A stretch of DNA of 64,000 nucleotides. It comes from Hyaloperonospora brassicae (lineage: Eukaryota > Oomycota > Peronosporomycetes > Peronosporales > Peronosporaceae). The stretch is from positions 62,001-126,000 of the forward strand of contig CANTFL010000226.1 in NCBI GenBank assembly GCA_947650285.1, given 5' to 3'. The stretch's first letter is position 1, and every line of letters starts with the position of its first letter. The notes under the pieces are model-generated. The model had not been told where the DNA came from and ran no database searches. It worked only from the letters and a program-made list of their open reading frames with translations. The position numbers and the translations under genes were made by a program. This document shows, in pieces, positions 287-56,950 of this stretch.

Positions 287-291
287 TCTTT
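287..291. other. Target-site duplication, left copy (TCTTT)
   Basis: The 5-bp TCTTT directly before the solo LTR is repeated at 682-686 directly after it. Five bases is the usual duplication length for Ty3/Gypsy integrases. Confidence 0.85.
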
Positions 292-681
292 TGTAACGGG
301 GCAGCCCGTTACATAATATTGTCACTTAAGGAAAGTGACAATAAAGAATATAAAGATGGATATTCTTTAAACAATATCACCGAAGCGGTGATATTGAAGG
401 GTCGACCAGAAGGGTCTGTTCATTGGTTGATATCTTGATGATATCAACCCACCAATCGCCGCAAGACGCGCGCAATGAGTGGTGACGAGACGTCACCATA
501 CATGCAGTTATATTAGTATAATTGAATTAAGTCAAACGAAGAGACAGTAGTTTAAGGACTTAATTTATTAATATAACAGTTCTACTTTTACCCTACCTAC
601 GCTTCCTCGCTCGCCACGTGTACGTCCGTCGGGGCACCCAAATCCCTTGCGTTAAGTTACGCAAGGGTGTGCCCCGTTACA
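292..681 (+). repeat. Solo LTR of Gypsy family A
   Basis: A 390-bp LTR starting TGTAACGGGG and ending CCCCGTTACA, a perfect 10-bp terminal inverted repeat. It aligns over its full length with the LTRs at 17825-18215 (opposite strand) and 35905-36296. It is flanked by a perfect 5-bp target-site duplication, TCTTT at 287-291 and 682-686, so it is a genuine insertion later reduced to one LTR by LTR-LTR recombination. It interrupts the LINE relic in the same orientation. It folds into several perfect stems, for example 317-327 with 333-343 and 372-382 with 386-396. Confidence 0.9.
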
Positions 682-1639
682 TCTTTCCTCTGTGATTTCC
701 CAGTCGCTTCTGTGGCCGACGATCACAGAGAGAATCCTCTCACTAGATTTTGTTGCCAAATTTACTGGAATGACAATCCTTGGATTTTGACCATCCGTGG
801 CAAGCCTCTGAAGAGCTCTTAATTCGCTTGAATACGTTCGTGCCGGATCCGAGATTTCTGTATTCAGCACACAGGACCGCACATTTTTGCTTTTACCATT
901 CCGTCTCTCGGTGAAGGTGCTGCTAGCCATCTACACCTAAATTACGCCGGTGGGCGTCTCTGATTCTGCTCGCATCGCCGCATATTGCTATAGGGACGGT
1001 ACTGACAGAACCGACTATACTCTTGCGGCAGCCGCCACCATTTCAACAACATTATCATTGGACTCGGTTCTCCGCCACGTCTGTCGTTGGTACAGCGCTA
1101 GGCTTCTCTTCGTCGCCGGAGCAGACCGTTCGACTTTCGAGGGGGGTTGATGGCCTTCTCTGGTTTTTGCACGGCGACCCTCTCGACTTACGCACCTCTT
1201 ACGAGCGGGAGGCAGCTGACTGGCATCACCGGCTCAAACAGGGACTCGTCTTTCTCGCCCATCCGGCCATTCATCAGCTGCCTTGGAGCGTGCCATATCA
1301 AGTAAAAAATCACCGGGTGTCGTCATCGTATGTACGCTAGGCTTTTCACTACCATAAACGGCAGCTTCGCCTTGCGCTGCAGCATTGGCTAGACTCGGTT
1401 GGAGCGGTGGCTTGAAGCGGTTGCGTATCAAAGACCCGCTCAAATTTGGTAGCACGCGGACAGTCTTACGGAGTACCAAGTGTGGACGGGTTACCGATTC
1501 GCAACCAATCAGCTCACTTTATATCACGCCGAACGCTTTGATGATCCCAGTTGCCAGAAACTCGAGCACTGCAAGCGGCGCAAAGAGACTGTCATTCAAT
1601 AAATTTTGTGATTGTTCAACCGCAGTAGCCTGCCGAACG

Positions 1640-13429: not shown

Positions 13430-15620
13430 ATTCGCTCACATCGGCAGATGTGTAATGCAAATTGCTGACTGCCTGAAGTCTTTCGGGATGGGAAGAGGCT
13501 GTTATTGTGAACGGGGAGAAGCATTAGGCTTCGCCCGTTATGGAACATCGCAAGCACGAATGTACTTGCGCACAAACAGAAACTTTCGGGGCCAGTAAAA
13601 GTCGCGACTTCCTGTAAAGGAGTCTTTCCCCTACCACGATGCCCGCCGGACGGGGCGTTGTGACATTCAACGATCAAGTGAAATCGCAAATTAGCATGAT
13701 TGGGAACGACAACGCGAGAAGTGTCATCAGCAACTTTTGTGTAGTACATGATGCCATTGAGAGTTGTAAACCGATCTAAATAGAAACGGTCCAGAGCCGA
13801 TAATCCCGACAAGGATTTATTAGGATGGATCGCACGATGACCTATCAAACGGAGTAGATTCGTATCTCCAGCGTACGACTTCCGCAAGTCGACGGGTGAA
13901 GGCGACAACGACACGCTGACTGACAGCGTCGCAATCGTGGGCTTATCCTCACTGTTGATTTTTGCGTCCGGCTCGAAATCGGGCCGGCGCGAAAGCGCAT
14001 CAGCGACGAAATTGAGGCTTCCTGGTTTATACTCCACGGAAAAGTTGTACTCCGCGAAGAAAGACAGCCACCTCGCCATCCTTTGCGAGAGGTGTGGGCT
14101 GTTTACGGCCGTGCGTAATGACGCATGGTCCGTATAGACAACAAACGGTCTATCTCCCAAGAGATAGACGCGAAACTTAGCCAGTGCGTACTTCATGGCA
14201 AGGAGTTCCTTGTCATGCACTGGGTAATTACGCTCAGCTGCTTGCAGATGACGCGACTGATAACAGATGACGCGCTCCGCGCCAGTTGCATCGAACTGCA
14301 TTGACGCACAGCCGATTGCAAATTCGCTGGCGGCACAGACCACATGAAATGGTCTGTCCTGATCTGCAATCGCCAAGATCGGCGATAGCATCAAGCTTTG
14401 CTTGATACCCTCAAAGAAAAGCTGGCACTCAGCGTTCCATGACCACTTGACATTTTTCTTGAGCAAGCAAGAAAGATGAACAGTCATCTTAGCGTAGTTG
14501 CGCGAGTACTTGTGCAAGTACGCCGCAAGACCAAGGACTTTCGAAGTCCCTTGACATAGACTGGCACTGACCAGTCGGTGATCGCCTTGATCTTTTCGGG
14601 ATCAGGGCGTACTCCGTAATTACCCACGGTGCACCCAAGAAGTGGTATTTCGCTAGCCGCGAATTTAAACTTCTTGAGGATGGCGTACAACTTAAGCTTG
14701 CGCATAAGGTGAAGAACCTGAAAAACGTGTGATCTATAAATTTCAACGTCCGTCATCCCGTCCATAGCCCGACTATGGACAAATACATCGTCAACGTAAA
14801 TCAATGCGAAATCTCGCACTAGTATCAACACATTTGTGACACATCTGTTGAATGTTGCAGGGAAATTGCTCAGCCCCTGTGGCATCACTAGCCACTCCCA
14901 CAGCATCCCGCTGAAGGTAATCACTGCCGTGAACTGGATATTCCGTCACGCATGAGTATTAGATAGAACCATTTATCAGATCAATGGACGAAAAGATGGT
15001 ACTCTTTGACATACCATCTATGATTACGTCCTTCCTCGGTATCGGCGTCTGATCCGGTACCGTTGCAGCATTCAATTTGTTGAATGCGTGCACTATCCGC
15101 TACCCTCCTGTGGACTTTCGCGCACAGAAGTTCGGAGAGCTGTGAAGGAAAGTTAATTTCCTGGTATGGCCCGCTGCAAAGCAATCGGCAAAGAACGTGT
15201 CGATCGCTAGTAATTGTTCACTAGGTAAAGACCACTGCTTCATAACACAGTTCTTCGAGCCCGGTTTAAGCTCGATTTCGTGTCAAGTGCCTATTTGTTT
15301 GGGACTCGCAAGGTGCGGATTCAGGGAATACATCCCTGAATTCGATCAAATCCTTATACAAAGGATTTGCCTGAAGAGATTCGCAGGATTTAGACGGGTG
15401 TCACTCAATTGGACTTTCTCATCAAGGACACATTCGTTCATCGATGAGCTGCTAAGAACCCGTTCGTTCTCAGCGAATACTGTTGCCGACCGAAAATCGG
15501 CCATATATTTATTCTCTGTGTCGAGTACGTAGATCGATTTGCCCTTGCCACTACGCAGCTCACGCAAGAACCGTTTCGGTTCTAGCGTTGGTGATCGAGT
15601 TATCCCCGACGTTACCTTCG
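13411..15620 (-). pseudogene. Gypsy A copy 1 pol remnant (RT, RNase H, start of integrase)
   Basis: Frames 14484-14924 and 13411-14517 cover the RT fingers/palm, the connection and RNase H. The RT motif reads YVDDVFVH, so the catalytic DD is kept. RNase H is damaged: CDASD of copy 2 is CAASE here, losing the first catalytic Asp, while the KELLAMKYA and VYTDHASLR motifs remain. The integrase zinc-binding start (ECHNAPSGGHRG) is seen near 13645, then homology decays. The RT N-terminus (about 14950-15620) is broken by indels. The last residues of the 13411-14517 frame are read from decayed DNA. Confidence 0.85.
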
Positions 15621-17767
15621 GAGCACAATCAGATCAAGCGTATAAGCGCCTACGCTTGATCCGTCACTAACCAAGACGTTCAACATCTCGGTTTCATCCC
15701 GGGAACTTGTTTCCACAGGTTGCTGTGGGCCTGATCCCTCAGCAAGTGACTCTTGAGGAATTCCTTCCTCAAGTACGTGGGGACTTATTCCCTCGACGTC
15801 TTCCGACTGTGGCTGTGCAACCACAGTCAGGCACCGATCCTCTACGGTCGACTTTCTAGTCGACCTAGAATTTCCATGTTGCCCCTTGGAGGCAACAGAT
15901 TTCTTTCTTCTAATATGCTGCCCGCTAGGCATGCATCCATGTCCCGGTCCACTCGACTTATTCGAGTGGTGGACCTTCGGCGCAGCCTGTACATCTGTAC
16001 AGCCGCCGGGGGCTTGCTCCAACTGTAGTGATCGTCTACACTGTGATCTTGTGCAGTCGTGCTAACGACCGTACCGCAAGTGAGGCCATCGCACTCACTC
16101 GCAGAACATCCACACGCTTGTGGAAGCTCCATGACATTTATCCGATGGCCATCAGTTAAACGAGCGGCAGACATCTTTACGGATCAATGCCGCCAGCTCA
16201 CCATTACCTCATACGTTCTGAGCCAAGGTAATCCCAGGATGACATCAAATTTGTTATCCAGATCCAGTTCGATGAAATCATCATCGTATAGTTTGCTCTC
16301 TAACGTGTAGTGGATTCAGACTACACGTTTTGCAACGGTTATCGATGCGCTTTTGGCGAGGTGCACCGTCATCCTCGTTGAAGTTATGTCGCGCTCAACG
16401 AAAGAAGAGCTTACGGTCCTCTAGTGACTAGCAAATAACAATGTTGGTCGGCTCCCCACAGTCAACTAGGGTGCGAAGTGAAGAATCCTTTGTCACTTGA
16501 AACTTCAAGGTGATGAGTGATATCTAATCACAAGGTGCAATGACACACAACGACTGTGTGTCTGGAGCAACTTTCGTCAAGAAATTTGCAAATTCTCTTG
16601 GAATTGCTGGATCAGTAGGGAGCTCCGGCCCTTATGACCCCGACCATGTTTTGATGGTCAATTTACCTCTTGTGGTTTCGTAACAGAGTTGAACCTACGA
16701 CCATTGATGTTTCAGCAAATAGTCTTTCATTCCGCTCAGGCATGTTTGATACTTGGCGTGGGGCCCTACACTCGTAAGCGTAGTGTCCTAGCTTCTGACA
16801 GCGATTGAACTTCTGCAAGCGCTTGTTGTTCTAAGAGCGAGGTGGCTTGCTTTCTACATAACAAAGGTCCATGGGTTCTTGACCTCCAGTCTCTGTTCGT
16901 CTCGGTGGACGATAAGAGCATGAGCTAGCATGAGCCTGTCTCATGCTAAAGTCTTCCTGTTTCGCAGCTGCAATTGCTTGTTCATTCGTATCCAGCTCTA
17001 AGCGGAACAGGTGATTCCTGACGAGACCATCTGCGAGCCCTTGCATGAACACAGTAATCAACGTGTTTACATGTACAATGTTGGCAGTTATACTACTCGC
17101 GAGGAGTCGTGCATGTTGAGCATAAGTGCGCACATTACGCTTACCTTGTTTGATTTTCAGAAGCTCCTATCGAGCTCTGAACTCCTCCCGGGGCGGCTCA
17201 AACGTTTTATTAAGCCGGGTCCAAAATGATTCTAGCTAAGCGAAAGCATAAAGGTCGCCAATCTCGAGCCCTAAGGCCCAAGACTTGGCACGTTCTGCCA
17301 TGTGGGATTGATCCAATATAAATTTATATGCTCATCGTCGATGCGACGTGCCTTTATGGCTCTGTCAACTTCGACGAACCATAATAACAGGGAGTCTTCC
17401 TAGACTCCTCTGTACTTGGAGATGTCAACTCATAAGATGTCGGGGTGAAGAGTATGCGTCGTCCCGCCCACAGAACCATTGAAACGCTGCTGTCTCAACC
17501 GATCTGTTTGTCGAGCACCGAGTTCTCTCAACTGCGAGGCCCGTTAAGACCCTTGCTGGTGAAGCAAGGATAACTTTTCTCTTTCGGCGACAAATTATTT
17601 TGAATGAAGCTGGCTATATCGGCATATTGTTGGCCCCTGTCTAGAGACTCCAACATGGCGCTAATGGCGGTATCGCCTACGATAGAACTCATTCGTTTTA
17701 CTGCAATCCGTTCAATGCACTCAAATGGCAAACCATTCACGCGTGGCGTGAAAGGTCTCTTCATCAT
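15620..17767 (-). pseudogene. Gypsy A copy 1 gag-protease region (broken)
   Basis: The minus frame 17528-17767 is the gag N-terminus and 16831-17133 the gag capsid C-terminal part; the frame around 15612-16174 is the protease-RT linker. The 100-residue capsid frame is identical to that at 29399-29701 in copy 2. Both copies share a stop just before the zinc knuckle, a knuckle that reads FNRCQKLGHYAYEC (first Cys replaced by Phe) and a protease loop reading LVDCG. Because the disabling changes are shared, the two copies descend from a common damaged template or were homogenised. Confidence 0.8.
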
Positions 17768-17824
17768 CCAACATGTTCATGTTGAATGTTGTGGTCGTTG
17801 GAAGGACTACAAAGTGCTACTAGG

Positions 17825-18215
17825 TGAAACGGGGCACACCCTTGCGTGAACTTAACGCAAGGGTATCGGTGCCTCGACAGATGTACACGTGGCAAGCGAG
17901 GAAGCGTAGGTAGGGTAAAAGCAGAACTGTTATATTAATAAAATTAAGTCTTTAAACTACTGTCTCTCTGTTTGACTTAACTTAATTATGCCAATATAAC
18001 TGAGTGTACGGTGACGTCTCGTCACTACTCATTGCGCGCGTCTTGCGGCGATTGGTGGGTTGATATCATCAAGATATCAACCAATGAACAGACTCTTTGG
18101 TCGACCCTTCAATATCACCACTTTAGTGATATTGTTCAAAAAATATTCAACTGCATATTCTTTATTGTCATTATCATTCAAATGACAATTCCATGTAACG
18201 GGCGGCCTCGTTACA
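17825..18215 (-). repeat. 5' LTR of Gypsy A copy 1
   Basis: 391 bp, in reverse complement TGTAACGAGG...CCCCGTTTCA, very close to the LTR at 35905-36296. In element orientation it is followed by CCTAGTAGCAC, a decayed form of the CCTGGTAGCAC primer-site sequence seen next to the family-B LTR. The 5 bp outside it (18216-18220, CAAAA) have no partner because the other end of the element is lost. Confidence 0.88.
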
Positions 18216-28764: not shown

Positions 28765-29860
28765 ATGATGACGAGAGCTTTCACGCCACGCGTGAAGGGT
28801 TTACCATTTGAGTGCATTGAACGGATTGCAGTAAAACGAATGAGTTCTATCGTAGGCGATACCGCCATTAGCGCCATGTTGGAGTCTCTAGACAGGGGCC
28901 AACAATATGCCGATATAGCCAGCTTCATTCAAAATAATTTGTCGCCGAAAGAGAAAAGTTATCCTTGCTTCACCATCAAGGGTCTTAACGGGCCTCGCAG
29001 TTGAGAGAACTCGGTGCTCGACAAACAGATCGGCTGAGACAGCAGCGTTTCAATGGTTCTGTGGGCGGGACGACGCATACGCTTCACCCCGACATCTTAT
29101 GAGTTGACATCTCCAAGTACAGAGGAGTCTAGGAAGACTCCCTGTTATTATGGTTCGTCGAAGTTGACAGAGCCATAAAGGCACGTCGCATCGACGATGA
29201 GCATATAAATTTATATTGGATCAATCCCACATGGCAGAACGTGCCAAGTCTTGGGCCTTAGGGCTCGAGATTGGCGACCTTTATGCTTTCGCTTCGCTAG
29301 AATCATTTTGGACCCGGCTTAAGAAAACGTTTGAGCCGCCCCGGGAGGAGTTCAGAGCTCGATAGGAGCTTCTGAAAATCAAACAAGGTAAGCGTAATGT
29401 GCGCACTTATGCTCAACATGCACGACTCCTCGCGAGTAGTATAACTGCCAACATTGTACATGTAAACACGTTGATTACTGTGTTCATGCAAGGGCTCGCA
29501 GATGGTCTCGTCAGGAATCACCTGTTCCGCTTAGAGCTGGATACGAATGAACAAGCAATTGCAGCTGCGAAACAGGAAGACTTTAGCATGAGACAGGCTC
29601 ATGCTAGCTCATGCTCTTATCGTCCACCGAGACGAACAGAGACTGGAGGTCAAGAACCCATGGACCTTTGTTATGTAGAAAGCAAGCCACCTCGCTCTTA
29701 GAACAACAAGCGCTTGCAGAAGTTCAATCGCTGTCAGAAGCTAGGACACTACGCTTACGAGTGTAGGGCCCCACGCCAAGTATCAAACATGCCTGAGCGG
29801 AATGAAAGACTATTTGCTGAAACATCAATGGTCGTAGGTTCAACGCTGTTACGAAACCAC
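28765..29860 (+). pseudogene. Gypsy A copy 2 gag (capsid and zinc knuckle), broken
   Basis: Frame 28765-29004 gives the gag N-terminus, the frame near 29290-29400 the WTRLKKTFEPPREEF block typical of Retrotrans_gag capsids, and 29399-29701 the capsid C-terminus ending in MDLCYVES. A TAG at 29699-29701 precedes the zinc knuckle, which reads KFNRCQKLGHYAYEC: the first Cys of the C-x2-C-x4-H-x4-C motif is Phe. The reading frame changes between the pieces. The same lesions occur in copy 1, and the capsid frame is identical between copies. Confidence 0.82.
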
Positions 29861-30019
29861 AAGAGGTAAATTGACCATCAAAACATGGTCGGGGTCATAA
29901 GGGCCGGAGCTCCCTACTGATCCAGCAATTCCAAGAGAATTTGCAAATTTCTTGACGAAAGTTGCTCCAGACACACAGTCGTTGTGTGTCATTGCACCTT
30001 GTGATTAGATATCACTCAT

Positions 30020-30345
30020 CACCTTGAAGTTTCAAGTGACAAAGGATTCTTCACTTCGCACCCTAGTTGACTGTGGGGAGCCGACCAACATTGTTATTTG
30101 CTAGTCACTAGAGGACCGTAAGCTCTTCTTTCGTTGAGCGCGACATAACTTCAACGAGGATGACGGTGCACCTCGCCAAAAGCGCATCGATAACCGTTGC
30201 AAAACGTGTAGTCTGAATCCACTACACGTTAGAGAGCAAACTATACGATGATGATTTCATCGAACTGGATCTGGATAACAAATTAGATGTCATTTTGTTA
30301 ATACCTTGGCTCAGAACGTATGAGGTAATGGTGAGCTGGCGGCAT
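30020..30345 (+). pseudogene. Gypsy A copy 2 aspartic protease (broken)
   Basis: The segment TLVDCGEPTNIVI at about 30058-30097 corresponds to the LVDSGA-NNFV active-site loop of retroviral-type aspartic proteases. The Asp is present but DSG has become DCG, and a TAG follows five residues later. Downstream pieces (MTVHLA, a YDDDFIELDLDNKLDVIL block at about 30240-30297, WLRTYE) match the rest of the oomycete Gypsy protease, with two further stops. Copy 1 carries the same DCG and stop near 16450-16472. Confidence 0.7.
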
Positions 30346-31090
30346 TGATCCGTAAAGATGTCTGCCGCTCGTTTAACTGATGGCCATCGGATAAATGTCA
30401 TGGAGCTTCCACAAGCGTGTGGATGTTCTGCGAGTGAGTGCGATGGCCTCACTTGCGGTACGGTCGTTAGCACGACTGCACAAGATCACAGTGTAGACGA
30501 TCACTACAGTTGGAGCAAGTCCCCGGCGGCTGTACAGATGTACAGGCTGCGCCGAAGGTCCACCACTCGAATAAGTCGAGTGGACCGGGACATGGATGCA
30601 TGCCTAGCGGGCAGCATCTTAGAAAAAGAAATCTGTTGCCTCCAAGGGGCAACATGGAAATTCTAGGTCGACTAGAAAGTCGACCGTAGAGGATCGGTGC
30701 CTGACTGTGGTTGCACAGCCACAGTCGGAAGACGTCGAGGGAATAAGTCCCCACGTACTTGAGGAAGGAATTCCTCAAGAGTCACTTGCTGAGGGATCAG
30801 GCCCACAGCAACCTGTGGAAACAAGTTCCCAGGAAGAAACCGAGATGTTGAACGTCTTGGTTAGTGACGGATCAAGCGTAGGCGCTTATACGCTTGATCT
30901 GATTGTGCCTCCGAAGTTGACTTCGGAGATAACTCAGTTGCCAACGCTAGAACCGAAACGGTTCTTGCGTGATCTGCGTAGTGGCAAAGTCAAGCAGATC
31001 TGCATACTCGTCACAGAGGATGAGTATGTGACCGACATTCGGTAGGCAACAGTATTTGCTGAGAACGAACGGGTTCTCAGCAGCTCATCG

Positions 31091-32590
31091 ATGGACGAAA
31101 GTGTCCTCGATGAGAAGACTCGGATCGAGCGATACACGTCTCAATCCTGGGAGTCACTTCAGGCAAATCCTTTGTATAAGGATTTGATCGAATTCAGGGA
31201 TGTGTTCCCTGAATCCGTACCTTGCGAGTTGCCTAAGGACAAAGGCACTCGACACGAGATCGAGCTCAAACCGGGCTCGAAGTACTGTGTCATGAAGCAG
31301 TGGCCACTGCCTCGTGAACAAGTACTAGCGATCGACAAGTTCTTTGCCGATCGCTTAGCAGCGGGCCATGTGAGGGAATCAACATCCCCTCACAGCTCTC
31401 CGACCTTCTGTGTGCGAAAGGCCACAGGAGGGTGGCGGATAGTGCACGCATTCAGCAAGTTGAATGCTGCAACGGTACCGGCTCAGACGCCGATACCGAG
31501 GAAGGACGTAATCATAGATGGTATGTCAAAGAGTACCATCTTTTCGTCCATGGATCTGATGGATGGATTCTATCAGATCCTGATGCGTGAACGGGACGTC
31601 CCGTTCACGGCAGTGAGTACCCCCAGCGGTATGCTGTGGGAGTGGCTAGTGATGCCACAGGGGCTGAGTAATGCCCCTGCAACATTCAACAGATGTGTAA
31701 CAAATCTGTTGAGACCGGTGCGAGACTTCGCACCGAGTTACTTCGACGATGTGTTCGTCCATTGCCGGGCTATGGACGGAAAGACGGACGTTGAAGTTCG
31801 CAGAACTCAAGTTCGTCAGGTTCTTCAACTTATGCGCAAGTATAAGTTGTACGCCAACCTCAAGAAGTGTATATTCGCGGCTAGCGAAATACCACTTCTT
31901 GGGTGTATCATGGATAAACACGGCGTACGCCCTGATCCCGAAAAGATCAAGGCGATCACCGACTGGCCAGTGCCAGTCGATGTCAAGGGACTAAGAAAGT
32001 TCCTTGGTCTTGCGGCGTACTTGCACAAGTACTCGCGCAACTACGCCGAGATGACTGTTCATATTTCTTGTCTGCTCAAGAAAAATGTCAAGTGGTCATG
32101 GAGCGCTGAGTGCCAGCGTTCCTTTGAAGGTATCAAGCAAAGCTTGATGCTATCGCCGATCTTGGCGATTGCAGATCAGGACAGACCATTTCATGTGGTC
32201 TGTGACGCCAGCGATTTCGCAATCGGCTGTGCGTTAATGCAGTTCGATGCAGATGGCGTGGAGCGCGTCATCTGTTATCAGTCGCGTCAGCCGCAAGCAG
32301 CTGAGCGTAATTACCCAGTGCATGACAAGGAACTCCTTGCCATGAAGTATGCACTGGCTAAGTTTCGCGTCTATCTCTTGGGAGATAGACCGTTTGTTGT
32401 CTACACGGACCATGCGTCATTACGCACGGCCGTAAACAGCCCACACCTCTCGCAAAGAATGGCGAGGTGGCTGTCTTTCTTCGCGGAGTATAACTTCTCC
32501 GTGGAGTATAAACCAGGAAGCCTCAATGTCGTCGCGGATGCTCTTTCGCGCCGGCACGATTTCGAGCCGGACGCACAAAACAACAGTTAG
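31091..32590 (+). pseudogene. Gypsy A copy 2 reverse transcriptase-RNase H segment
   Basis: 499 open codons. RT motifs: SSMDLMDGFYQI at about 31546 with the first catalytic Asp, VMPQGLSNAPATFNRC at about 31651, and YFDDVFVH at about 31740 with the catalytic DD. RNase H motifs: VVCDASDFAIG at about 32197 (Asp), KELLAMKYA at about 32329 (Glu), VYTDHASLR at about 32398 (Asp), closing with VVADALSRRHD at about 32530. All catalytic residues are present. The upstream TAG (31043) and downstream TAG (32588) isolate the segment. RNA-dependent DNA synthesis and template removal are the family roles. Confidence 0.92.
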
Positions 32591-32689
32591 GATAAGCCCA
32601 CTGTTGCGACACTGTCAGTCAGTATCCCGTCGTCAAGTTTACATGACGACGTACGAAAGGCATACGCGGAAGATAAGGATCTTCTACGA

Positions 32690-33530
32690 TTGATGGATCA
32701 TCTGGTAAATCCATTCAGTAAATCCATGAGGGATTTACCGGCTTTGTATCGATCCTCATCGGATCGGTATAGTACACGCAACGGATTGCTGTACTATACA
32801 TCTGTTGCCCACGACACGCCTCGTGTCGTCGTACCCGCTCATCATGATTTGCGTTTGCGCATCATGTATGAGTGTCACGATGCCCCAACAAGCGGCCATC
32901 GTGGAAGGGAAAAGACTTAACTCACAGTAAGTCGCGACTTTTACTGGCCCCGCCAGTATCAGTTTGTTCGCAAGTACATACGTGCTTGCGAAGTTTGTCA
33001 ACGGGTGAAGGCTAGTCATTCATCCCGTGCGCCATTGCAGCCTCTGCCTGTTCCGACAGAGTGCTGGCAGTCCGTTTCAATGGACTTCGTCTTCGGGTTT
33101 CCCAAAGACGCTCACAAGAATAATGGTATTCTTGTGTTTGTTGACCGATTCAGCAAGATGGTCCATCTTGCTGCTGTCCCTGAGTCGATCAAGGCTCAAG
33201 GTTGTGCTCGTGTCTTGCTAGACACGGTCTTTAGACTCCACGGGTTACCCCGTGAACTCGTATCCGACCGTGACCCTCGGTTCACGGCGGCATTTTGGCA
33301 AACCGTGTTCCGTACTCTCGGAACACGATTGAAGATGTCCACTTCTGACCATCCAGAAACAGATGGTCAGACGGAACGTGCGAACCGTGTCCTCGAATAG
33401 ATCCTTCGAGGATATGTCCACTCGTTTCCGAGTTGGAGCGAATTCCTACCCATGGTGGAATTCGCCATCAATAATTCGGTGCATGCTTCCACACAGCACA
33501 CACCGTTTTACGTGAATGGCCTACGCCATC
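32690..33530 (+). pseudogene. Gypsy A copy 2 integrase segment
   Basis: The zinc-binding start reads ECHDAPTSGHRG (about 32869-32904), then FYWP and CEVCQRVKAS (about 32987-33017). The catalytic core has MDFVFGFP (Asp, about 33080), VSDRDPRFTAAFW (Asp, about 33260) and ETDGQTERANR (Glu, about 33357). So the D,D-35-E triad is intact, but stops at 32918 and 33398 split it. An FAINNSVHASTQHTPFYVN block follows. The C-terminal SKLLPKYIGPFRVL domain lies at about 34045-34090. Confidence 0.9.
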
Positions 33531-34166
33531 CACGAGTGCCCAACCTTATAGAGTGTGACTCTTGGATAAGAGGGGGAGGGACTCGCTCGAGCAAAAACCG
33601 TTTTGGCTCTTGCTCATCACGTGTCGACGTTAACGTCGTCACGTATGATGCCGATGTCGATCAAGTCGACATCGATGAAGAAGATCGCCTCAATAAAAGC
33701 GACGACGCTATTATTGACTCGGATGATGATGACGATGCTGGTATATCCAGCAACGCCAACGATTATGCCAGCGAGGAAGAAGACAACATCGCTGAAGAAG
33801 AGAACAATCTCTTAGCAGTGCGCACGAAGCGCACTGCCAGACAAAACAAAGAGTCAGCAGAGAACTTCCTGCTGACTCCAGAAGCGGTAGTCCGTTTCGT
33901 TCAAGACTCCATCGCAAATGCGGTGGACCGTCAGAAACGGAACGCAGACAAGAATGGAAGAGCCAATGTTCTTTCATTTAAGGTTAATGACCTAGTACTA
34001 CTGTCTACGGTAAACTTACCTGGACATGCAGTCACTAGTGTCGGCAGTAGTAAACTACTGCCGAAATACATTGGGCCATTTCGAGTGTTGCATCGCAAGG
34101 GCAATGCATACACACTCGAATTGCCACGTAGGATGCGCACGCATCCTACGTTTTACTTGTGGAGGC

Positions 34167-34514
34167 TCAGGCCGTACTTTCAGTACGAGCCTTCTTCTTC
34201 CGATGAAGATAGCCCCCACGTTCAAGAACATCCATCAAGTTCTTGCGTTCGCGCTCCAGACGATCCGTCTGGTCGCGCAGATATGATATCTCGGAACTCA
34301 ACCGAGATATCTCCCCGCGAGCTGTCGCCAGCCCGCCGAATAGGGAGCGGACATCCCGCTCGACCTGAAGCTGCGCTGTGGCATAATCGGCGCGATCCAT
34401 CGCCCGATCAGCCTCGTGATCCTTGCGGTTCTTTCGCACGGTATCGGTCAAAGCGTAGCGCCGGTCGCGCTCGTGCTTCAAGTCATCGCGCAATTCATCG
34501 ATTGCGCGATCCAT
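34167..34514 (-). CDS. Antisense coiled-coil-like frame overlapping the Gypsy A pol spacer
   Basis: 115 codons on the minus strand, ATG at 34514, opposite the region between integrase and chromodomain. The product is extremely rich in Arg, Asp, Glu and Leu, with DELRDDLKHERDRRYAL and EISRLSSEISYLRDQTDRL segments having hydrophobic residues at heptad-like spacing, and a basic RKKKAR tail. The sense strand here is also open but Pro/Arg/Ser-rich. It could be the 3' exon or a frameshifted end of the antisense gene at 34733-35782. Gypsy B has a helical antisense frame at the same place. Function unknown. Confidence 0.45.
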   Translation of the reverse strand: MDRAIDELRDDLKHERDRRYALTDTVRKNRKDHEADRAMDRADYATAQLQVERDVRSLFGGLATARGEISRLSSEISYLRDQTDRLERERKNLMDVLERGGYLHRKKKARTESTA

Positions 34515-34578
34515 CTCGTAAGGGTCGAGATGGTGAACCGAATCATCTGGAGGAGGTTTTCCTCCTCCACCACATCCT

Positions 34579-34794
34579 TTGGTGGACGCTCACGGTGATC
34601 AACGCTTTCTAGTGGAGAGTATTTTGAATCACCGTGACGATTCAGGATTAAGGACGAGCTACCTCGTCCAGTGGCGGGGGTATCCACCATCTTGGAACAG
34701 CTGGGAGCCCCGCTCTCAGCTGTTGATGGATGTTAATGGTCTCGTCCGCCAGTATGACGAGACCCATCCGATGAGTCCTGTGGCCCATCGATAA
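34579..34794 (+). pseudogene. Gypsy A copy 2 chromodomain
   Basis: QRFLVESILNHRDD...TSYLVQWRGYPPSWNSWEP is a clear chromodomain, the C-terminal targeting module of chromovirus-type Gypsy integrases that recognises methylated histone tails. It is in a frame one base off the preceding pol frame, which runs to 34612, so a frameshift within about 34560-34612 disconnects it. It ends with ETHPMSPVAHR and a stop at 34792. Confidence 0.85.
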
Positions 34795-35782
34795 ACACGC
34801 GCTTCTGGCGCTTGTAGACGGATTGCAAGTTTGCAATCGCGTCACGCATCTCAGCCGAGATGTGTGCCCTTCCCCAGGGCGAATTTAGGGAATACACATC
34901 CCTATGTGCACGCTGCGAGTTGTCAACACAACTCGCACAAGGGTCTCCCCATGTGAGGCAAGGAATGCCTGCCTCACTCGATAAAAAATGCAACCGGTAC
35001 CTAGCACCGGTTGGCGTTCGCCGTTCGAACCTGAGGCGTGTCGCCTCAAATTTCTTGAGCCACCCTTCTCGTCCAAAATTCTTAACATTTTGGACGAACG
35101 CGTTCCACGCAGCCAAAAGCGAGGCCTTGTCACGGTTTTGGTTGCTGTTGTACCATCGATGTCTAAGGAAGATATCGAGATACTAGTCTTCCTCAGCGCA
35201 AAAGTTCTTCGCGTTGGAACTCAAGCCGTGAAGCTCAGTTGCATCGAATAAGGGTATTCGATGATGTTGGGTTGTCTCGTGAGACAAACAATTCATGGGC
35301 CGTTCGAGCAAACGCCACGGCTTCGGCTCAGCACGCTTCACAGTGGTACCCTTGTCGGTACCACGGCTCCCAGATTGACGACGGCTCACGCCCTCGTCAT
35401 CACGCTCGTGCGAAGACGCACGAGCCGGCGGTGGTAAGGAATAGTATTCCTCACCGACCTGATCATCGTCATCACTGCCGAACATACTGTGATGCAAATC
35501 ACGAGTCCGTTCGTTCGGCAGTGGCCTTAGCGAATACTGAGGCGTCGCCGGTGAGCGAGACGCCTCTGGAGCATTGCCCGAGTCAGACACGTCTGATTCG
35601 CCCGAGTAGATAACCGCAACGTTGGGGTCATCATGCGCACGCGGTGAGGTGCCGCGTGCACCTGCCGAACCTATTGCTGCAGGCGAAGAAGGAGCAGCAG
35701 AAGACGAATCGTTTAAGGCAGATGCTGGCACAGCACCGGGCTGTGTAGGTCTTAAGTCACCTCGCAAAGACATGTTAACCAT
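34733..35782 (-). CDS. Long antisense ORF between chromodomain and 3' LTR of Gypsy A copy 2
   Basis: From ATG at 35782 the minus strand stays in one frame for 350 codons to a stop at 34733, with a single internal TAG at 35183-35185. The first 130 residues are Ser/Pro/Asp-rich and look disordered (SGESDVSDSG, FGSDDDDQVGEEYY). The second half looks globular, with Trp/Phe-rich helices (AAWNAFVQNVKNFGREGWLK), a CLTWGDPCASC cysteine cluster and a basic YKRQKR segment. It overlaps the last 62 bases of the sense chromodomain frame, tail to tail. I do not recognise the family. The sense strand opposite carries no pol homology past 34794. Confidence 0.5.
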
Positions 35783-35892
35783 GCGAGGTCAAGCGGAAAG
35801 TTAATGGAACGGACCCAAAAAGTGCTCTCTGTCCCAATGGTGGCCAACGGATGACCGCCATATTTTCAATAGTCACGCGATGACTATCAGTT

Positions 35893-35904
35893 AAGGGGAG
35901 AGGA
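35893..35904 (+). promoter_or_regulatory. Polypurine tract of Gypsy A copy 2
   Basis: AAGGGGAGAGGA lies immediately before the TG of the 3' LTR, the expected position for the plus-strand DNA primer. Confidence 0.8.
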
Positions 35905-36296
35905 TGTAACGGGGCAGCCCGTTACATGGAAATTGTCATTTGAATGATAATGACAATAAAGAATATGCAGTTGAATATTCTTTGAACAATATCACCAAAG
36001 TGGTGATATTGAAAGGTCGACCAAAGAGTCTGTTCATTGGTTGATATCTTGATGATATCAACCCATCAATCGCCGCAAGACGCGCGCAATGAGTGGTGAC
36101 GAGACGTCACCATACACTCAGTTATATATGCATAATTAAGTTAAGTCAAACAGAGAGACAGTAGTTAAAAGAATTAATTATATTAATATACCAGTTCTGC
36201 TTTTACCTTACCTACGCTTCCTCGCTTGTCTTGTGTACATCTGTCGAGGCACCGATACCCTTGCGTTAAGTTCACGCAAGGGTGTGCCCCGTTACA
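35905..36296 (+). repeat. 3' LTR of Gypsy A copy 2
   Basis: 392 bp, TGTAACGGGG...CCCCGTTACA, closely matching the LTR of copy 1 and the solo LTR at 292-681 but not its own 5' LTR. Perfect stems: 35905-35913 with 35918-35926; 35932-35940 with 35949-35957; 35988-35997 with 36001-36010; 36039-36048 with 36054-36063; 36258-36266 with 36274-36282. Confidence 0.92.
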
Positions 36297-38495: not shown

Positions 38496-39360
38496 GGGAA
38501 TTGCGAAATTCTGGCCCCTTTTCCTTAGATCACTCTTTTCCTTCAGAAAGTTATAAATACAAGGTACGCAATCGCCGTTGGACAGAGATATGTACTTTCT
38601 CAGCCACTTGGCCACGGGCGACATCTTGCGCGCTGCTGTAGCTGCTGGCACCGACATAGGCAAAAAGGTCAATGCCGCGATGGAGTCGGGCGCACTTTCG
38701 ACCGAAGAGATTGTCGTCGGTATCATTAAGGACGTCATCGAGAGTTCGAAATGCCGTCATGGCTTAGTTCTTGATGACTTTGCACGAACCTTCGTGCAGG
38801 AGAAAAAGGTGAGAACAAGAGGTGATACCTACAAGTGTCCAGGTTGCAACGCACAGGCTGACCATATGTCCCTCTTTTTGTATGCGTAGTCCTCGCAACT
38901 AAAATTGTACCTGCTGGCCTTCAATGACGTCTCTTGCGCTGGCTGGGCGTACGTGTCGTACCTAACAGTGACAACGGTCCTCAAGGCGCGTGATGGTGGC
39001 GATCTGGACTGAAGCCAAGTGGCACAAATCACGTGGGACGTTGTGTCACTGCCGCTCAAAATGGTTCAGACGATGGCCGTAATAAAGATTGTGCACGATG
39101 CCGTGGGCTTTGTGCTATACGCAACTTCGGAAGAAGGAAGCATGTTATTTCGCGGTGCCCGATCAGTTAACACTGGAGAAGCTAGACCACAGGCGTGAGC
39201 AGTATGCTATGTATTTCTTACGTATTATATGCCAATTAATGGCCCAGATTATTAAGTAATACCTTTGTCAGATATCAAACCTTAAAAAAAGCAATTTATT
39301 TATAATATTTTGAAGGAAGGGTGTAAATCTAAGCAAAGCGGAGTGAATTTAGCAATTCCC
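38496..39360 (+). mobile_element. MULE-like TIR element 1 carrying an adenylate kinase fragment
   Basis: About 865 bp bounded by inverted repeats of roughly 60-70 bp. The left end reads GGGAATTGCGAAATTC and then a CCTTTTCCTTAGAT..TTCCTTC block. The right end, in reverse complement, reads GGGAATTGCTAAATTCA and then CTTAGATTTACACCCTTCCTTC. The interior has a captured adenylate kinase piece at the left. Its right-hand 200 bp match 42425-42590 of element 2 in reverse complement. I could not find a matching 9-bp target duplication at the flanks. The MULE assignment rests on element 2, which carries a FAR1-like DNA-binding segment. Confidence 0.65.
38560..38889 (+). pseudogene. Captured adenylate kinase fragment
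   Basis: The plus frame starting at about 38560 reads SPLDRDMYFLSHLATGDILR, AAVAAGTDIGKK, SGALSTEEIVVGIIKD, CRHGLVLDDFARTFVQEKK. This is the AMP-binding part of adenylate kinase (compare HLATGDMLR...GKK...L-DE-VV-LI...GF-LDGFPRT--QAE of the AK2 type). Homology ends near 38812; the last 25 residues are unrelated. The N-terminal P-loop exon and the LID/C-terminal half are absent, and the DGFPR motif is DDFAR, so it cannot be a working enzyme. No intron is visible in the captured part. Confidence 0.8.
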
Positions 39361-42340
39361 TATATGTATCAGATGAAGGATTTGTTATCGAATGATTTCC
39401 GCGTTGCTTACATGGATCGACTGTGCAAATTTTCTTCTCTCTCTCTGCTGCTAGTCCTGGTTATAGAATCTTTTAAATTTAATAACTAACAGCACCAAGT
39501 GAAAAAAAGTTTTTACCTTAACTAGTATCTTTACACTAATCTTTAAGACTAAAAAAAGTGTCGAATGCGGATCTGATTTCGATCCGAGGTAAAACAAATT
39601 GAAACGAATAGTAAAGTATGCGTATTGGAAGAAATGTTAGATGATGCAATATACTAGGGCAAAGTTTAAAACGCACTACTACTGGAGGAAGCGAAAAAAT
39701 TTAATTTGAATGAAAATACCTTTCAGGATAAGCATATCTAGTGCATATATGTAACAATCACATTAAACCAAGGTTACAGGCTAAATGTACCGAGAAATTA
39801 TATTTTTAATGCATGCTATTGTTGTGTGCACCAAGATGCTGTTAATTATACCGAAACGGAATTTTAGCATATATTCTATACTTCCTGCTCAAAATAGGCG
39901 TACAATTTCGCTTACTTGATATGTGTCGATTGTAAAACTATAGCCAGTTAGTCGTCGCATGTAGCCACTACATGGACCGTTTGATTTTGTATTCTCTCTT
40001 TTATCTCCGTTTTCATCATGAACAGACGGTAGTGTATGCAGTATGTATCTCGTAGGGTTAGCGAAGAGGCATGATAAAATTTCGTCATTATTTCGTAATC
40101 AGATACATTATCTAGAATTTAAATCCATCTTATATCGATGTACTATAAAAGCAAAGCAATGGAACCGCAAAAGAATTAATTTGTATATGAAATAGTCAGA
40201 TGCATGTGTATGAAACGATCTTTACATCGAGCATCTTTCGCTGTATCGCTTCGAAAATAATATTGATGTCTGTAGCATACCAAACATACCACACTATGAA
40301 CAACCTATCGTCTTTTGTCTAATTAACGCTATATAAATTGGGAGAGGGTAGAACAATGTAGTCAAAAAGTGTCGTTGTACACATAATCAATGAGGTATGC
40401 AAGTCCGACGTTTCCAAATTTTTCAACTATAAACCCACTGCCCCAGAGCTATTAAAGTGTTTATTATTTATAAAATATTTGATTTAGGCAATTGTACCAA
40501 GCTTTGTCAACATCTGAGCATTAAAGTTAGCATCAAGTAATATTGCAGCGTGATGTGGTATTTATGTACGGTTACTTGAATCCGCTATATATTTAAATGC
40601 TGGATAAGGTAGTAAACATATTATATACTAAACGTTTACACCATTTATAGCGCGATACGTCGTGCTTGCGTGAGTGGTATCGGCCGTGTGATCATTAAGA
40701 CGAGCACTTTTTATTATTCGCTTTTTTACATGAGTGAAAGGTTGTCGGTATCATCTAATTTTTTTAATTATGGTAACTCAAATGACAAGGTATCGCAATA
40801 GTATCGGATCGCGACTATGACGGATGAGAAGTAGTGGTTTATAAAGGCCACTCAGAGGATGGATTAAATATATGAGGACCCGGTCGATAGGCAGTCATAA
40901 ATTAATTAAAAAACGGTGATTCATATAAATCTTTTTGAAATGATAATGCGAGAAAAAAGCAAACTTACCGCTTCTTTGTCCAAGAGAAATGTATTCTTAT
41001 AGTCACAAAGTTTCTAGCAACACAAGTGGTTTATAATAGCTCCTATTATAAACGAAACGGTTGAGGGTCAAATAGTTGGAAGAACAACGTCTCGAAAATC
41101 AAGTCGGTCATATGCGATATCGAAAGTACTCGGAGTGTATATGAGCGTCCGTAGAGCCCATTTCTCGTTTTGAGTATGGAATATTATTCTTTATTTTCAT
41201 GGCCACAGATGCCCGTATATTCGCGCTAATACAACTTCTGGACGCTTCGATTAAACGACGCCTCGATAAGACACATGCCATCGATGGACGAACATGAAAT
41301 TTGCTTTAATTTCTCGTATGATCGATAGTTTCAAATTTTACCGAAACACTTATACAAAAGTTTTTATTACTACTCTAAATAAAAGCTAAGATATAGCTAC
41401 ATGGATGGAATGAACGCGTGAAGATTATATTATAAAATTAGTACAACACTAACCTACGGTTGTGGTGCATTTCCCGACAAACCCACACATATTGTGGTAT
41501 AATTATCACACTTCGCCTCCAGTAAAACATTTAAATGGATTAACGGTGATGAAAAATATATTAAGAATAAGGAATGGTTGACAGAGGGACAATTTTGCCA
41601 CTAATGCTACTTCCTAAATTCCATGATCGGAATACAATACAAATTGGAAATAATATATAGGGTGGGATAAAAGTTTTAGGAAAATTGAGGCTCCCATTAG
41701 GCGCCTTTTGCGTGTATATTAGTAGTGTGACAAAGCCAAGTCTAGCGGTTTGCACGTGCCGTGTCCAGGAGTCGATATATGTAATGAATTTTATGGGCTT
41801 AAATTCCAGCGCTTTCGGCGAGCCTAAGATAATATAACTTTGTCGGAAATCTAGCTATTGCGGAAGTTGCAAATGCATTTCAGTTATTGCATTCTAATTT
41901 CAAGGCTATAAATTGCTTTTTACGAGACCGGTTTTATAAACGCTGGATCTGTTCGAAAAAGTTCGTGGTCAGTTTTGCAGGGAGCGAAGAAGACGAAATA
42001 AATACGAAATGCAAGGTTATGCGTCAATTCACCAGGTAGCGATGTATACATAGATAGAAGAAGAAAAGCTAAGATTATACAGTGAAAGAAATCAAAATTG
42101 CGTATTTATACAGAGTAAGGAGTACTCGTTTAAGCACAAAGCCAAAGCAATGTTTAAAATTTATACAAAAGAAATTTCAACAGAGTTTACTAATGTCAGT
42201 GTTTTGTACTGCTGTAGTAACTTGTCAACGCATCTCGTTTATTATCATCTGAGCCTTCTGAAGCCACGCCAAAAGCATAATAATAAACGGTTTTATTATA
42301 TCTTTTCGAAATACTAATACAAAAATGGATCACTATATTT
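39361..42340. other. AT-rich stretch between the two MULE-like elements
   Basis: No gene or repeat recognised. Only short random frames (e.g. 41561-41755 minus). Confidence 0.5.
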
Positions 42341-42608
42341 AAGGAATTGCTAAATTCACACCCTTTTTCCTTAGATTCACACCCTTCCTTAAAAATTTTT
42401 TATATAAAATTTATAATCAGTATAAGATTTGATACATGACAAAGGTATTACTCAATAATCGAGGCCAGTAATTGGCAAGTAATACGTAAGAAATACATAA
42501 GATACTACTCACGGATGTGGTATAGCTCCTCCAGCGTTTACTGATAGGGCACCGCGAAATAACATGCTACCTCCTCCCGAGGTTGAGTATGCCAGTTAGG
42601 ATCAACTT

Positions 42609-42806
42609 ATGAAAACTGTGCAGACGTTCGCACGTGGCCAAGGCTATGCTGTTACGATTATAGGTTCGATTGCAGGAAAGTGTGTCTACCTTAAATGTGA
42701 TCGAGGTGCCGTACACGTACCAAAGCTTGGAAAAAAGCGCCAACGCCAGACCAGCTCACGCCGAATCAATTGCCCGTTCCTTTTATGTGGAAATTTCTAT
42801 ATATAG
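42609..42806 (+). pseudogene. FAR1-type DNA-binding domain fragment of a MULE transposase
   Basis: 65 codons reading QTFARGQGYAVTIIGSIAG..VYLKCDRGAV...SSRRINCPFLLCGNF. This fits the FAR1/MULE N-terminal zinc-binding pattern (aFA---GYav--..S-----vyl-CDRgG-y---...sR-tgCPF-l), with the paired Cys residues of CDRG and CPF present. The following Trp and His-x-His part of the domain, and the transposase core, are absent. Confidence 0.6.
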
Positions 42807-42847
42807 GATTTTGAAGGAAGGTTGTGAATCGAAGGAAGAGGGGTGTG

Positions 42848-42922
42848 ATGTCGCCCGTAGCCAAGTGGCAGAAAAAATACTCGTCTTTGTCCAACGGCGA
42901 TTCCGTACCTAATATATAATAT
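42848..42922 (-). pseudogene. Second copy of the captured adenylate kinase exon (short)
   Basis: On the minus strand SPLDKDEYFFCHLATGDI matches SPLDRDMYFLSHLATGDI in element 1. The CHLATGD here fits the adenylate kinase consensus better (Cys kept). Homology stops after about 20 codons, where a TIR-like block begins. So both elements descend from one capture event. Confidence 0.7.
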
Positions 42923-42975
42923 TTGAAGGAAGGGTGTGAATCTATGGAAAAGGGTTTTGAATTTAGCAATTTCCT

Positions 42976-45900
42976 ATATCAATTTTCAAAATATGTAAAC
43001 ATATTTTGGCAATCGCAATGATCCTCTTCAGCGCAAATATCCATGTTCTTTTCAGATTGTGCCTATCTTGACACACGATATAAAGATTACTTATAAAACC
43101 TAATTTTCAAACAGTTTATGTAGCTCTTCACCTTATATGGCGAGGATCCATATTCCAGATATTCATTAGGTGTCAGCAGGAGGGCTCCCGGGTTGCGTTT
43201 ATCAGTATTGTGTGTCAAAATCTATTTTTTAGAACTATAAGTTTGCGTTGGAGGGGTATGGCGCGCTACCCGTTATACTTATTGGTGATTGCTTACACAA
43301 GATCTAGAGAGAATATTGACCTAACGTGCCCGCGTAAAAAAATACCCCAATAAAAAAATTATTAGCGATACCAAGCGTTGTAAAATTCGAAATTTAGTCT
43401 AATAATGCAGATTTAGCGGTACAGATACCTTGATCGATCTAATAATGCGTTTGGACGCAAGATTTGATTTACATATGTGGTCTTATCCGTTATTAAATCA
43501 CAGAACGTCGTGACTATTTTATCAAAATTGGCCTCTCAACTGAAATCTTTTAAAACAAATTTATTGCGCAATGTGGCAAGTTGGCAAATCAATGTTCATA
43601 CAAAAAGTAGAAGGCTTGAGATACAGGACTTTCAGTGTCAAATAGTTATTCCAAATTTCTTGTTATAACTCTTTGATGCAGGGACCTGTTGTGGCACATA
43701 AAGTCATGGTAGCTTGACCGAAGTAATTTACCCATGCAAGTGACTTCATGATAGTTGTGCGGGAGGTCGGCGACGATAAAGGCATCATGGACCAATCATA
43801 ATAATGGCCCGATGACTGAAGTTGTCGGGTAAGCGATTAAGATAGCACTTATACGCGCCAATGAAATTTTTAATTGAGGGTTTGAGCGAATTTGTCGAGC
43901 GTGAAAGGTTTTAACATCGAGGCAGCCGAAAACACTATATGTGTGTAATGGGGCAACCTATTTTACTAATAGGATACATATATTACTACATAGTTTAATA
44001 ATATGAGATATAGGCAATATCCGAATAGCAAAAAATGTGCGCCAATTCATTATTGGTTGATAATTGGGGTGTCAGATCCAGCAGTTAGCCAATAATTAGG
44101 TGTATGCTAAAGGGTACCTATGATCTAGTTTGCATAATTTTGCCTTAAGTGCAAAAATATATCAAAAACACATTTGAACAGTTCAATTTACGAGTCAATA
44201 AAATCCCCCTTTTTACGCCCTTATGGTGAAAGATTATAATAAGGATCATTTCCCCGTAACAGGGTGCGAACAAAGCGATTCCTATTACCTCTTACGATAG
44301 ACAGTGTATAATGCAGTACATACGTTCAATGCAAGGCGTATAACTGAAGATGCTCGATATCGTCGAGTATTACGGTAAAAGCTCACCGATAGAAACACTT
44401 AGCAACTGAAAACTGTGTTGAATTGAGCACCATTCAGGAAAAATGAGGTTAGGCGGGAAGGGCGTTGTTAGTCCTCTTGTACTAAGAGGACAAGCAGTAA
44501 GATAAAATTTGCTGATTAAATTGCAGCGGGGAAAAATGGAAACCAGACGTTTTATATTACAGATAATACGGTAGCTGACACCGAGCCTAGTTGCCGGCTC
44601 TAATCAAAATATGTGTTTTGGTAACCCCCTGCGTCGATAAGGGAGCCATCAGACGTTGGTACATAACATCGAAGCAAAGCAACGAGAGAAATGATAAGAA
44701 ATGATTGATTCTTATCGTATTGGCCTGTCTTCAACACGCAAATAATTTCAAAGACTAGAATAATCGTGGCGAGTAGCCTAAAACTAAGAAAAAGCTTGTA
44801 GAATGTCTTAATGAATGCATAGAAATAAATAAAGCAGGCATCAAGATTCGCTTTGGATACTAGAAGTCTCTTATGATCTTGCGTTCGATTCAAAATTTTT
44901 GCTGCGGGATTACTGAAGCCTGCATTATGGCTGCCACTATTGAGACATGAGTTACTTGACTAGGCAATGACATAAATATAGGCAAAGGCGGCGAATCATC
45001 TCAATGATAGTACAACTATTATAGATACGGTAATAAATGCTCATTGGATCAGGCAAAAACACCGTTTCAGCGCCAAATCCGCTTAAAACCTACTATATAG
45101 CAGTCAACGCTATACCCTGCCATTGCATTTGTTAGTCGATACGATATTTAGGTATCCCTACACCAATGGAAATTTTAATCCTGCTAATCTATCCTGCTGA
45201 GCGAAGTACATCGTACATTCTGTACTTGGTTGGTGTGGAGAAGCGGGTCGAAGAATAGTGTAAGTAATGTGCTAAAGAAGGGCTACCCCGTTACCTGTAC
45301 TAAATACGAAGATCAAATTTATAGATCGGTTCCGATCGACAATCGGAACTGATCTGGCAGTAGACCCTATCCGAAAGGAGATTTAATCAAAGAAGCATCC
45401 AATTCAAAAGTAATTTTAATCTATGATGGATCCAATCTGATATAGTATTCTTATCTAAGAGAGGATCCGATCCAAGCTCCGATTTTGATCAAAGCCAGAG
45501 GTAAGGATTGAATCAATGACCTTACATTATACACGAGACAGATTGTTTCATTCGCGACACGTGTCGAGTTTCTTTTCATCAAAAAGTCTAAGCCGTAAAA
45601 TTTGTGAAATGTTCGGTTAACATTTGGAAGATTTTTTTACCATCGTTTTGCACAGGACGCGTGTCTACCCTTACCGGTAAAAAAATGATTTTGACCTTTT
45701 GACTCTGGGGTATTTCACGCGTCTCTAATAATATCAATTTCTTCCGATTCCTTAGCTTTCTGTATACGCCCGACGTGTCACATTTTAGGACAGAAACCGA
45801 TAATGGCCTTTCGATGTGTCATGGGTTACCTGCGTCCGAGCCGTGTCAGTCCCAGTGTCGTGTGTATAGATATTGTATCTCAGGTTGACTAATACGCTCC

Positions 45901-46130
45901 GTTACGTTATCACGGACGTTGACACTTATTAATCTGGGCACGAGTCCTGAAAACGTTTTCGGTATGGCAGGACCTTATATTGGCATCATGAGGATCAAGG
46001 CAAGAGTACCGCGTGTGAATCAAGATGAAGTGATTCCATTATTAATTTGGCCAAGGAGTTCGTAAAAATTGTATTTAACGGTTCATTAATAGATAAATTA
46101 GACTTAAAACAATTAAAAGAAACGCGTCAT
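42976..46130. other. No genes recognised; one strong hairpin
   Basis: AT-rich. LTR-end-like words (TGTAATGGGGCAACC at 43946-43960, CTACCCCGTTAC at 45283-45294) hint at very old LTRs but no full alignment was possible. A strong hairpin lies at 45323-45355. Confidence 0.4.
45323..45355. other. 14-bp inverted repeat (one mismatch)
   Basis: AGATCGGTTCCGAT (45323-45336) pairs with ATCGGAACTGATCT (45342-45355) with 13 of 14 matches and a 5-base loop. Related GATCC/GATCNGATCC words continue to about 45490. It may be part of a MITE or LTR relic. Confidence 0.55.
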
Positions 46131-46178
46131 CGCTTCGAAGATGGATCTGTGGCCTCCCGACAAAACGAGTAACGCCAT

Positions 46179-56922: not shown

Positions 56923-56950
56923 CTTTGAGTATTTAGCTGAATACTCAAAG
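56923..56950. other. Perfect 11-bp inverted repeat
   Basis: CTTTGAGTATT (56923-56933) and AATACTCAAAG (56940-56950) with a 6-base loop, isolated in AT-rich DNA. Confidence 0.5.

Follow-up and report, generated by a model that had tools for sequence, protein, structure and literature searches.

Perfect hairpins threaded through a Gypsy retrotransposon family of Hyaloperonospora brassicae, with preferred stem length varying among families

Why should the coding DNA of a retrotransposon be a chain of perfect stem-loops? The question is raised by a Gypsy element, here called copy A, in a 64,000-nucleotide stretch of the oomycete Hyaloperonospora brassicae (the window; GenBank assembly GCA_947650285.1, contig CANTFL010000226.1, positions 62,001 to 126,000), where a preliminary reading made from the sequence alone had listed short inverted repeats running through reverse transcriptase (RT) codons as well as long terminal repeats (LTRs). 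All 13 stem pairs listed in that reading are exact, and its count of at least twenty stems was too low: positions 28802-36296 (7,495 bases) hold 85, 59 and 18 perfect stems of at least 7, 8 and 10 bp with loops of up to 12 bases, as against 4.80, 1.23 and 0.08 in 60 dinucleotide shuffles (for stems of at least 8 bp, standard deviation 1.30 and maximum 5). Perfect stems of at least 8 bp are called long stems below. Copy A belongs to a family, F1, in which such hairpins are built through codon choice and overlaid on the protein, and we consider it likely that selection acts on their folding.

Hairpins in copy A and in family F1

The sequence-only reading was right that a Gypsy element is present but not that it starts at 28802, as copy A begins at about 28623, the end of a truncated 5′ LTR. 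Its parts and some individual hairpins are as follows, F2 and F3 being related families of the same genome:

28623..36296, + strand: Gypsy copy A (family F1), 5′-truncated and decayed; 59 long stems within 28802-36296
31046..32590, + strand: RT-RNase H coding region with hairpins (Pfam RVT_1, RT_RNaseH, RT_RNaseH_2)
31586..31609, + strand: perfect 24-bp palindrome within RT codons, in the conserved R-x-R-D-V-P-x-T stretch
31960..31979, + strand: 8-bp stem; F2 and F3 have a hairpin at the homologous codons, with the arm sequence replaced
32921..33400, + strand: integrase coding piece (Integrase_H2C2, rve)
33344..33371, + strand: 10-bp stem; F2 and F3 also have a hairpin at the homologous codons
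33401..34612, + strand: C-terminal pol piece with a Tf2-1-like SH3 domain
34041..34064, + strand: 11-bp stem; the F2 and F3 homologues are hairpins of other sequence
34126..34151, + strand: stem of 12 bp with a loop of 2 bases
34173..35788, − strand: remnant of an antisense open reading frame (ORF; 539 amino acids in the young copy), hairpins throughout
34537..34794, + strand: chromodomain piece
35904..36296, + strand: 3′ LTR of copy A; 7 long stems in 393 bases

Twelve long stems fall within positions 31091-32590 of the RT-RNase H region (0.27 in shuffles), and the first four stems of the 3′ LTR nearly abut, end to end.

The genome (100.56 Mb in 898 contigs) was searched for further copies, and the loci taken are the best-scoring ones rather than a random sample (best 40 of 2,213 in the DNA search, best 150 of 3,511 in the family search). 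Sixty loci were fetched, of which 54 are F1 and six (L039, L046, L052-L055) represent another family, F4. Copy A represents F1 poorly, being decayed relative to young copies: over the same 4.5-kb stretch it has 35 long stems (locus L001) against 62 in young copy L003. The 29 young loci (L002-L030), 4.5 kb each, have 54-62, and across 53 copies stem number drops with divergence from L003 (Spearman -0.87). The young C364 copy, when both of its identical LTRs are included, has 114 long stems in 7,993 nt (about 14 per kb), and its host flanks have none in 1,190 nt and one in 1,025 nt. Within F1, long stems number 17.8 per kb in the LTR, 12.4 in the post-LTR and gag part, 13.7 in pol, 10.0 in the chromodomain part and 18.0 in the antisense ORF part. 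Genome-wide, a 24-base LTR hairpin has 762 exact occurrences, and a control sequence has none.

Dinucleotide and codon-preserving shuffles, the check which the preliminary reading had proposed, lose nearly all stems. The open frame of L003 (1,432 amino acids within the locus) contains 59 long stems compared with 1.4 in 60 synonymous-codon shuffles, and shuffles keeping protein, codon usage and dinucleotides (17% of bases changed) retain 3.4 stems of 8-10 bp compared with 53. In predicted minimum-energy RNA folds, 59 of 62 F1 stems recur. The minimum folding energy difference (MFED), calculated by our own version of the method given in PMC3950689 with 8 shuffles per fragment, is 48.6% for 3 kb of F1 gag-pol and 44.4% for the 3′ part. 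Elsewhere it is 10.8% in F2, 8.9% in F3, 14.3% in F4, 4.7% in a Copia-type element (L068) and 4.0% in the long interspersed nuclear element (LINE), the last two also passing the MFED threshold, which discriminates poorly here. The RNA phage MS2 gave 28.0% for its plus and 23.3% for its minus strand.

Stem length and stem evolution among Gypsy families

Further loci were obtained through an integrase search (L064-L071) and by coordinates (L074-L078). Two of these, L074 and L076, constitute F2 (proteins 99% identical) and L078 is F3; protein identity to F1 is 53% for L074 and L078 and 49% for L076, and L074 and L078 are 71% identical to each other, while F4 is about 65% identical to F1 in DNA. 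Comparison with Gypsy families of the same GC content, which the sequence-only reading had put forward as a refuting test, gave a surprising answer: F4 is without 8-bp stems as a class (one long stem in 3.3 kb), yet is rich in 5-bp stems, and F2 and F3 have stems of 8-9 bp (17 stems vs 0.52 and 12 vs 0.65, respectively, in 2.5 kb). Stems of exactly 5 bp number 106 vs 29.3 in 4.7 kb of F4, and 75 vs 22.6 (standard deviation 4.6) in synonymous shuffles or 28.2 under a null keeping protein and dinucleotides. Only 16 of the 122 F4 stems of at least 5 bp exceed that length (p 0.0016 against one in four).

Stems of 8, 9, 10, 11, 12 and 14 bp number 32, 37, 27, 12, 5 and 1 in the C364 copy of F1 (n=114); the excess peaks at 9 bp and stops at 12, with 6 of 114 stems measuring 12-14 bp. 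F2 stems of 7 to 11 bp number 4, 19, 7, 2 and 1, peaking at 8 bp. Preferred stem length varies by Gypsy family inside one host: F4 favours 5 bp, F2 8 bp, F3 8-9 bp and F1 8-10 bp. In MS2 and ribosomal RNA (rRNA), stem lengths fall off smoothly. Ten loci judged to be Copia-type from their domain order have few long stems (1, 0, 1, 2, 0, 0, 0 and 2 in L064-L071, 1 in L075 and 0 in L077); the shuffle comparisons cover L064, L068, L075 and L077. No relatives of the hairpin element were confirmed in the viral contig and genome contig collections. In F4 (L052, L082), 86 of 122 closing pairs of the 5-bp stems have a pyrimidine on the 5′ side and a purine on the 3′ side, and F1 is unbiased in this respect.

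To follow the evolution of F1 stems, the stem mask was taken from L035 (a sister copy whose identity to L003 is 0.884) and changes were scored within the F1 clade. On internal branches with at least 4 tips, third positions have changed at 15/197 stem, 13/60 loop and 169/824 other sites, and on terminal branches at 70/197, 35/60 and 440/824, respectively. When the stem mask was shifted along the sequence, no shift was as low as the real stems on internal branches. Of the 406 base pairs compared between L003 and L035, 47 have changed on one side and 19 on both, 13 of the latter remaining Watson-Crick, where independence predicts 4.45 two-sided changes, about 1.5 of them Watson-Crick. At three centres F1, F2 and F3 form a hairpin at homologous codons with differing arms, and F4 is imperfectly paired there. 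Sharing of exact hairpin centres beats rotation (4, 4 and 3 shared; p 0.0025, 0.001 and 0.001), although one of the four F1-F2 shared centres sits in a gapped stretch of the alignment and with a tolerance of 6 bases the excess misses the 5% level (p 0.06-0.08). Conserved protein motifs may help to hold some shared hairpins in place.

The LTR is non-coding. With stems taken from copy B, a second F1 copy in the window (see below), the young copy and copy A differ at 2/76 stem, 4/26 loop and 32/289 other positions (p 0.017), and both differing stem bases belong to one paired change, C-G to T-A. This is one of four LTR comparisons, the others giving p 0.091, 0.62 and 0.00095, of which the last used stems from an LTR close to a compared one.

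Proteins of the element and the rest of the window

F1 is a Ty3/Gypsy element with a chromodomain, its domains following the order protease, RT, RNase H, integrase, chromodomain; the L003 ORF matches RVP_2 (86-188), RVT_1 (540-705), RT_RNaseH (794-899), H2C2 (1017-1074) and rve (1093-1186), and a Chromo domain was found in L073. The best relatives of its RT protein come from oomycetes, among them Peronospora (80%) and Phytophthora. The LTRs of the C364 copy are 100% identical over a 393-base match with TG...CA ends, and CAAAA flanks the element on both sides as a target-site duplication. The LTR ends form a perfect 11-bp inverted repeat (TGTAACGGGGC / GCCCCGTTACA; L072:1192-1202 and the LTR end), and the 5′ end of the LTR doubles as an arm of the first hairpin. 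A Gag zinc knuckle, C-x2-C-x4-H-x4-C, is present in 29 of 30 F1 loci. At the start of L002 and L003 the gag zinc-knuckle frame (1) and the pol frame (0) are one base apart, an offset that suggests frameshifting.

The antisense ORF of F1 (539 amino acids; L073:80-1696, − strand) lies at the 3′ end and overlaps the chromodomain region, and antisense ORFs were also found in F2 (465 amino acids, L081) and F4 (437 amino acids, L082). Its predicted protein matched no Pfam family at its cut-off; of 7,998 candidates scored against it, 12 are relatives at E ≤0.001, two of these from Peronospora matthiolae. The antisense ORF was considered as the sole cause of the hairpins and rejected, as F4 has such an ORF but no long stems.

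Two further F1 features lie elsewhere in the window:

13467..18215, − strand: copy B, same family F1, more decayed and 3′-truncated
~291..684, + strand: LTR of F1, 97% identical to the LTR of the young copy, 7/7 hairpins present

The preliminary reading had noted relics that still show some hairpins, which holds, but had assigned them to other families, whereas copy B (91.6% identical to copy A over 4457 columns) and this LTR are F1. The stem excess elsewhere in the window is mainly within these F1 relics. Its statement that the LINE lacks the hairpin texture agrees with one long stem in region 59000-64000 vs 0.55 expected; the 5-13 kb part is at chance level (3 vs 2.48), and two decayed Gypsy relics, at 18.5-21.6 and 50-53.2 kb, have few stems or none. 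The AT-rich part at 39000-58000 has a modest excess (11 long stems vs 5.30 expected).

Candidate causes and known systems

Selection for folded genomic RNA was one of two causes offered in the sequence-only reading, and it is supported by the shuffles, third-position conservation, covariation and predicted folds. Selection on pairing would explain the conservation and covariation of stems, their turnover with pairing kept and their decay after insertion, and we infer that pairing as such, and not one sequence, is its object; genomic RNA is probably the selected molecule, perhaps together with antisense RNA. Perfect hairpins of 8-12 bp run the whole length of F1, LTRs included; they would then be maintained by selection keeping its genomic RNA folded, and the folded RNA would be bound and condensed by the element's own Gag nucleocapsid. 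We give even weight for and against this full reading, in which the hairpins are maintained for genomic RNA bound by Gag; the identification of Gag as the reader of hairpins is, taken by itself, tentative. The silencing machinery of the host is the same for all these families, yet their preferred stem lengths differ, so the reader may be encoded by the element. The most inferential step is that stem length would be set by such a factor, the simplest candidate being Gag, which has a CCHC knuckle, and a length-coded fold, where each clade family keeps its own stem length and an element-encoded protein reads it, is a possible though doubtful extension.

A number of observations weigh against selection on folded genomic RNA or restrict its reach. 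Terminal branches are likewise depleted in stem changes (P 0.0075), and the contrast between internal and terminal branches depends on the cut, with p 0.05 for third positions at ≥4 tips, 0.22 for third positions at ≥2 tips and 0.0009 for all positions at ≥2 tips. No two-sided changes were seen within F4, whose copies are 2-5% apart, and stem conservation in that family is slight (0.026-0.033 vs 0.036-0.049). Hairpin maintenance is demonstrated for F1 alone, and the samples of the other families comprise 2 loci for F2, 1 for F3 and 6 for F4, with a single downstream piece added for F2 and another for F4. Neither the loops nor the stems of F1 showed a sequence motif of the kind that a specific binder would leave, and regular spacing or phasing of hairpins, looked for as a feature of the family, was rejected as spacing is random. 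Folding of the F1 minus strand is no weaker than that of the plus strand (MFED 53.4 vs 48.6%), and G-U and A-C changes in F1 stems are equal (13 vs 10 and 17 vs 18 on internal branches), so that plus-strand RNA is not established as the target. The G-U/A-C test is not decisive on strand because the same symmetry is found in MS2, which has an RNA genome; it is absent in rRNA.

The main rival, which we regard as rather unlikely, is that hairpins are armour against silencing: folding would hide the transcript from small-RNA-guided Argonaute and would block annealing of sense and antisense RNA into Dicer substrates, single stems being too short for Dicer. The 539-amino-acid antisense ORF makes antisense transcription likely, and both strands fold equally well. 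Most small RNAs of Phytophthora infestans are reported to map to LTR retrotransposons, in both orientations on two Gypsy elements (PMC3522703), and PMC3950689 reports that ordered structure accompanied weaker innate recognition in animal RNA viruses. F1 and F4, however, both have antisense ORFs (539 and 437 amino acids) in one host, yet differ in stem length (8-10 vs 5 bp), and it is not obvious how a single threshold of a host sensor could give both lengths.

It is unlikely that the stems arise by template switching of the reverse transcriptase in quasi-palindromes, with one arm copied from the other and the enzyme setting the length in each family. Such mutation would give perfect inverted repeats, and F1 arms are perfectly Watson-Crick with no G-U preference; they decay only after insertion, and family-specific lengths would suit different enzymes. 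A further hint is that 3′ arms are closer to F4 proteins than 5′ arms, with amino acid identities of 0.69 vs 0.46 (L046), 0.71 vs 0.47 (L039) and 0.56 vs 0.51 (L052). The signatures expected of this process, which was the second cause offered in the preliminary reading, were not found in F1. Set against 109 homologous proteins, the RT-RNase H region shows no arm asymmetry, 7 of its 18 stems having the better match in the 3′ arm (p 0.45). Hairpin changes are not more clustered on internal (93/203 vs 249/482, p 0.18) or terminal branches (142/361 vs 270/766, p 0.19), and stems stop abruptly, flanking pairs being complementary at chance level (137/565). The non-coding LTR arms are slow and not concerted-fast, albeit at few sites.

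DNA as the selected molecule, whether as hairpins in minus-strand complementary DNA (cDNA) or as cruciforms in the integrated copy, is unlikely. It would fit the strand symmetry described above, namely the equality of G-U and A-C changes and a minus strand as foldable as the plus, but MS2 shows the same G-U/A-C symmetry with a genome of RNA, and no role is known that would call for some hundred hairpins in cDNA. An origin by chance, codon bias or composition has a negligible probability, since none of the shuffles, whether dinucleotide, synonymous or the two combined, reaches the stem count and F4, with the same protein domains and similar GC content, is without long stems.

Under selection on folded RNA, stem length should track whichever factor reads F1-type hairpins. 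One genome holds four clade families that differ in stem length, together with hundreds of copies whose relative ages are known, and the combination of differing lengths and datable copies makes the function of genome-wide RNA structure testable. RNA phages such as MS2 have distributed packaging hairpins and many local stem-loops in coding RNA. As a control, MS2 has 2 stems of at least 8 bp (loop 3-12) in 3,569 nt and a broad, falling length spectrum; the coding DNA of F1 carries a second information layer no weaker than that of the most structured RNA phage in the comparison. Among the titles and abstract openings of the literature searched, no such hairpin-threaded retrotransposon is described. 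Yeast Ty3, like F1, is a Gypsy-type LTR retrotransposon, and its genomic RNA folds internally: SHAPE-MaP (selective 2′-hydroxyl acylation analysed by primer extension and mutational profiling) shows a well-folded core that makes up almost 20% of it, and the available part of that source makes no mention of the chain of equal hairpins that marks F1 (PMC11381356). The closest likeness is to genome-scale ordered RNA structure (GORS) of RNA viruses, which F1 resembles but exceeds in strength without being an RNA virus; as an LTR retrotransposon it falls outside the set in which GORS was described. Its MFED of 44-49% compares with a maximum of 16.0% in the panel of 18 transcripts in PMC3950689, and it differs from GORS further in its perfect hairpins, its oomycete host and a stem length that is family-specific within one host.

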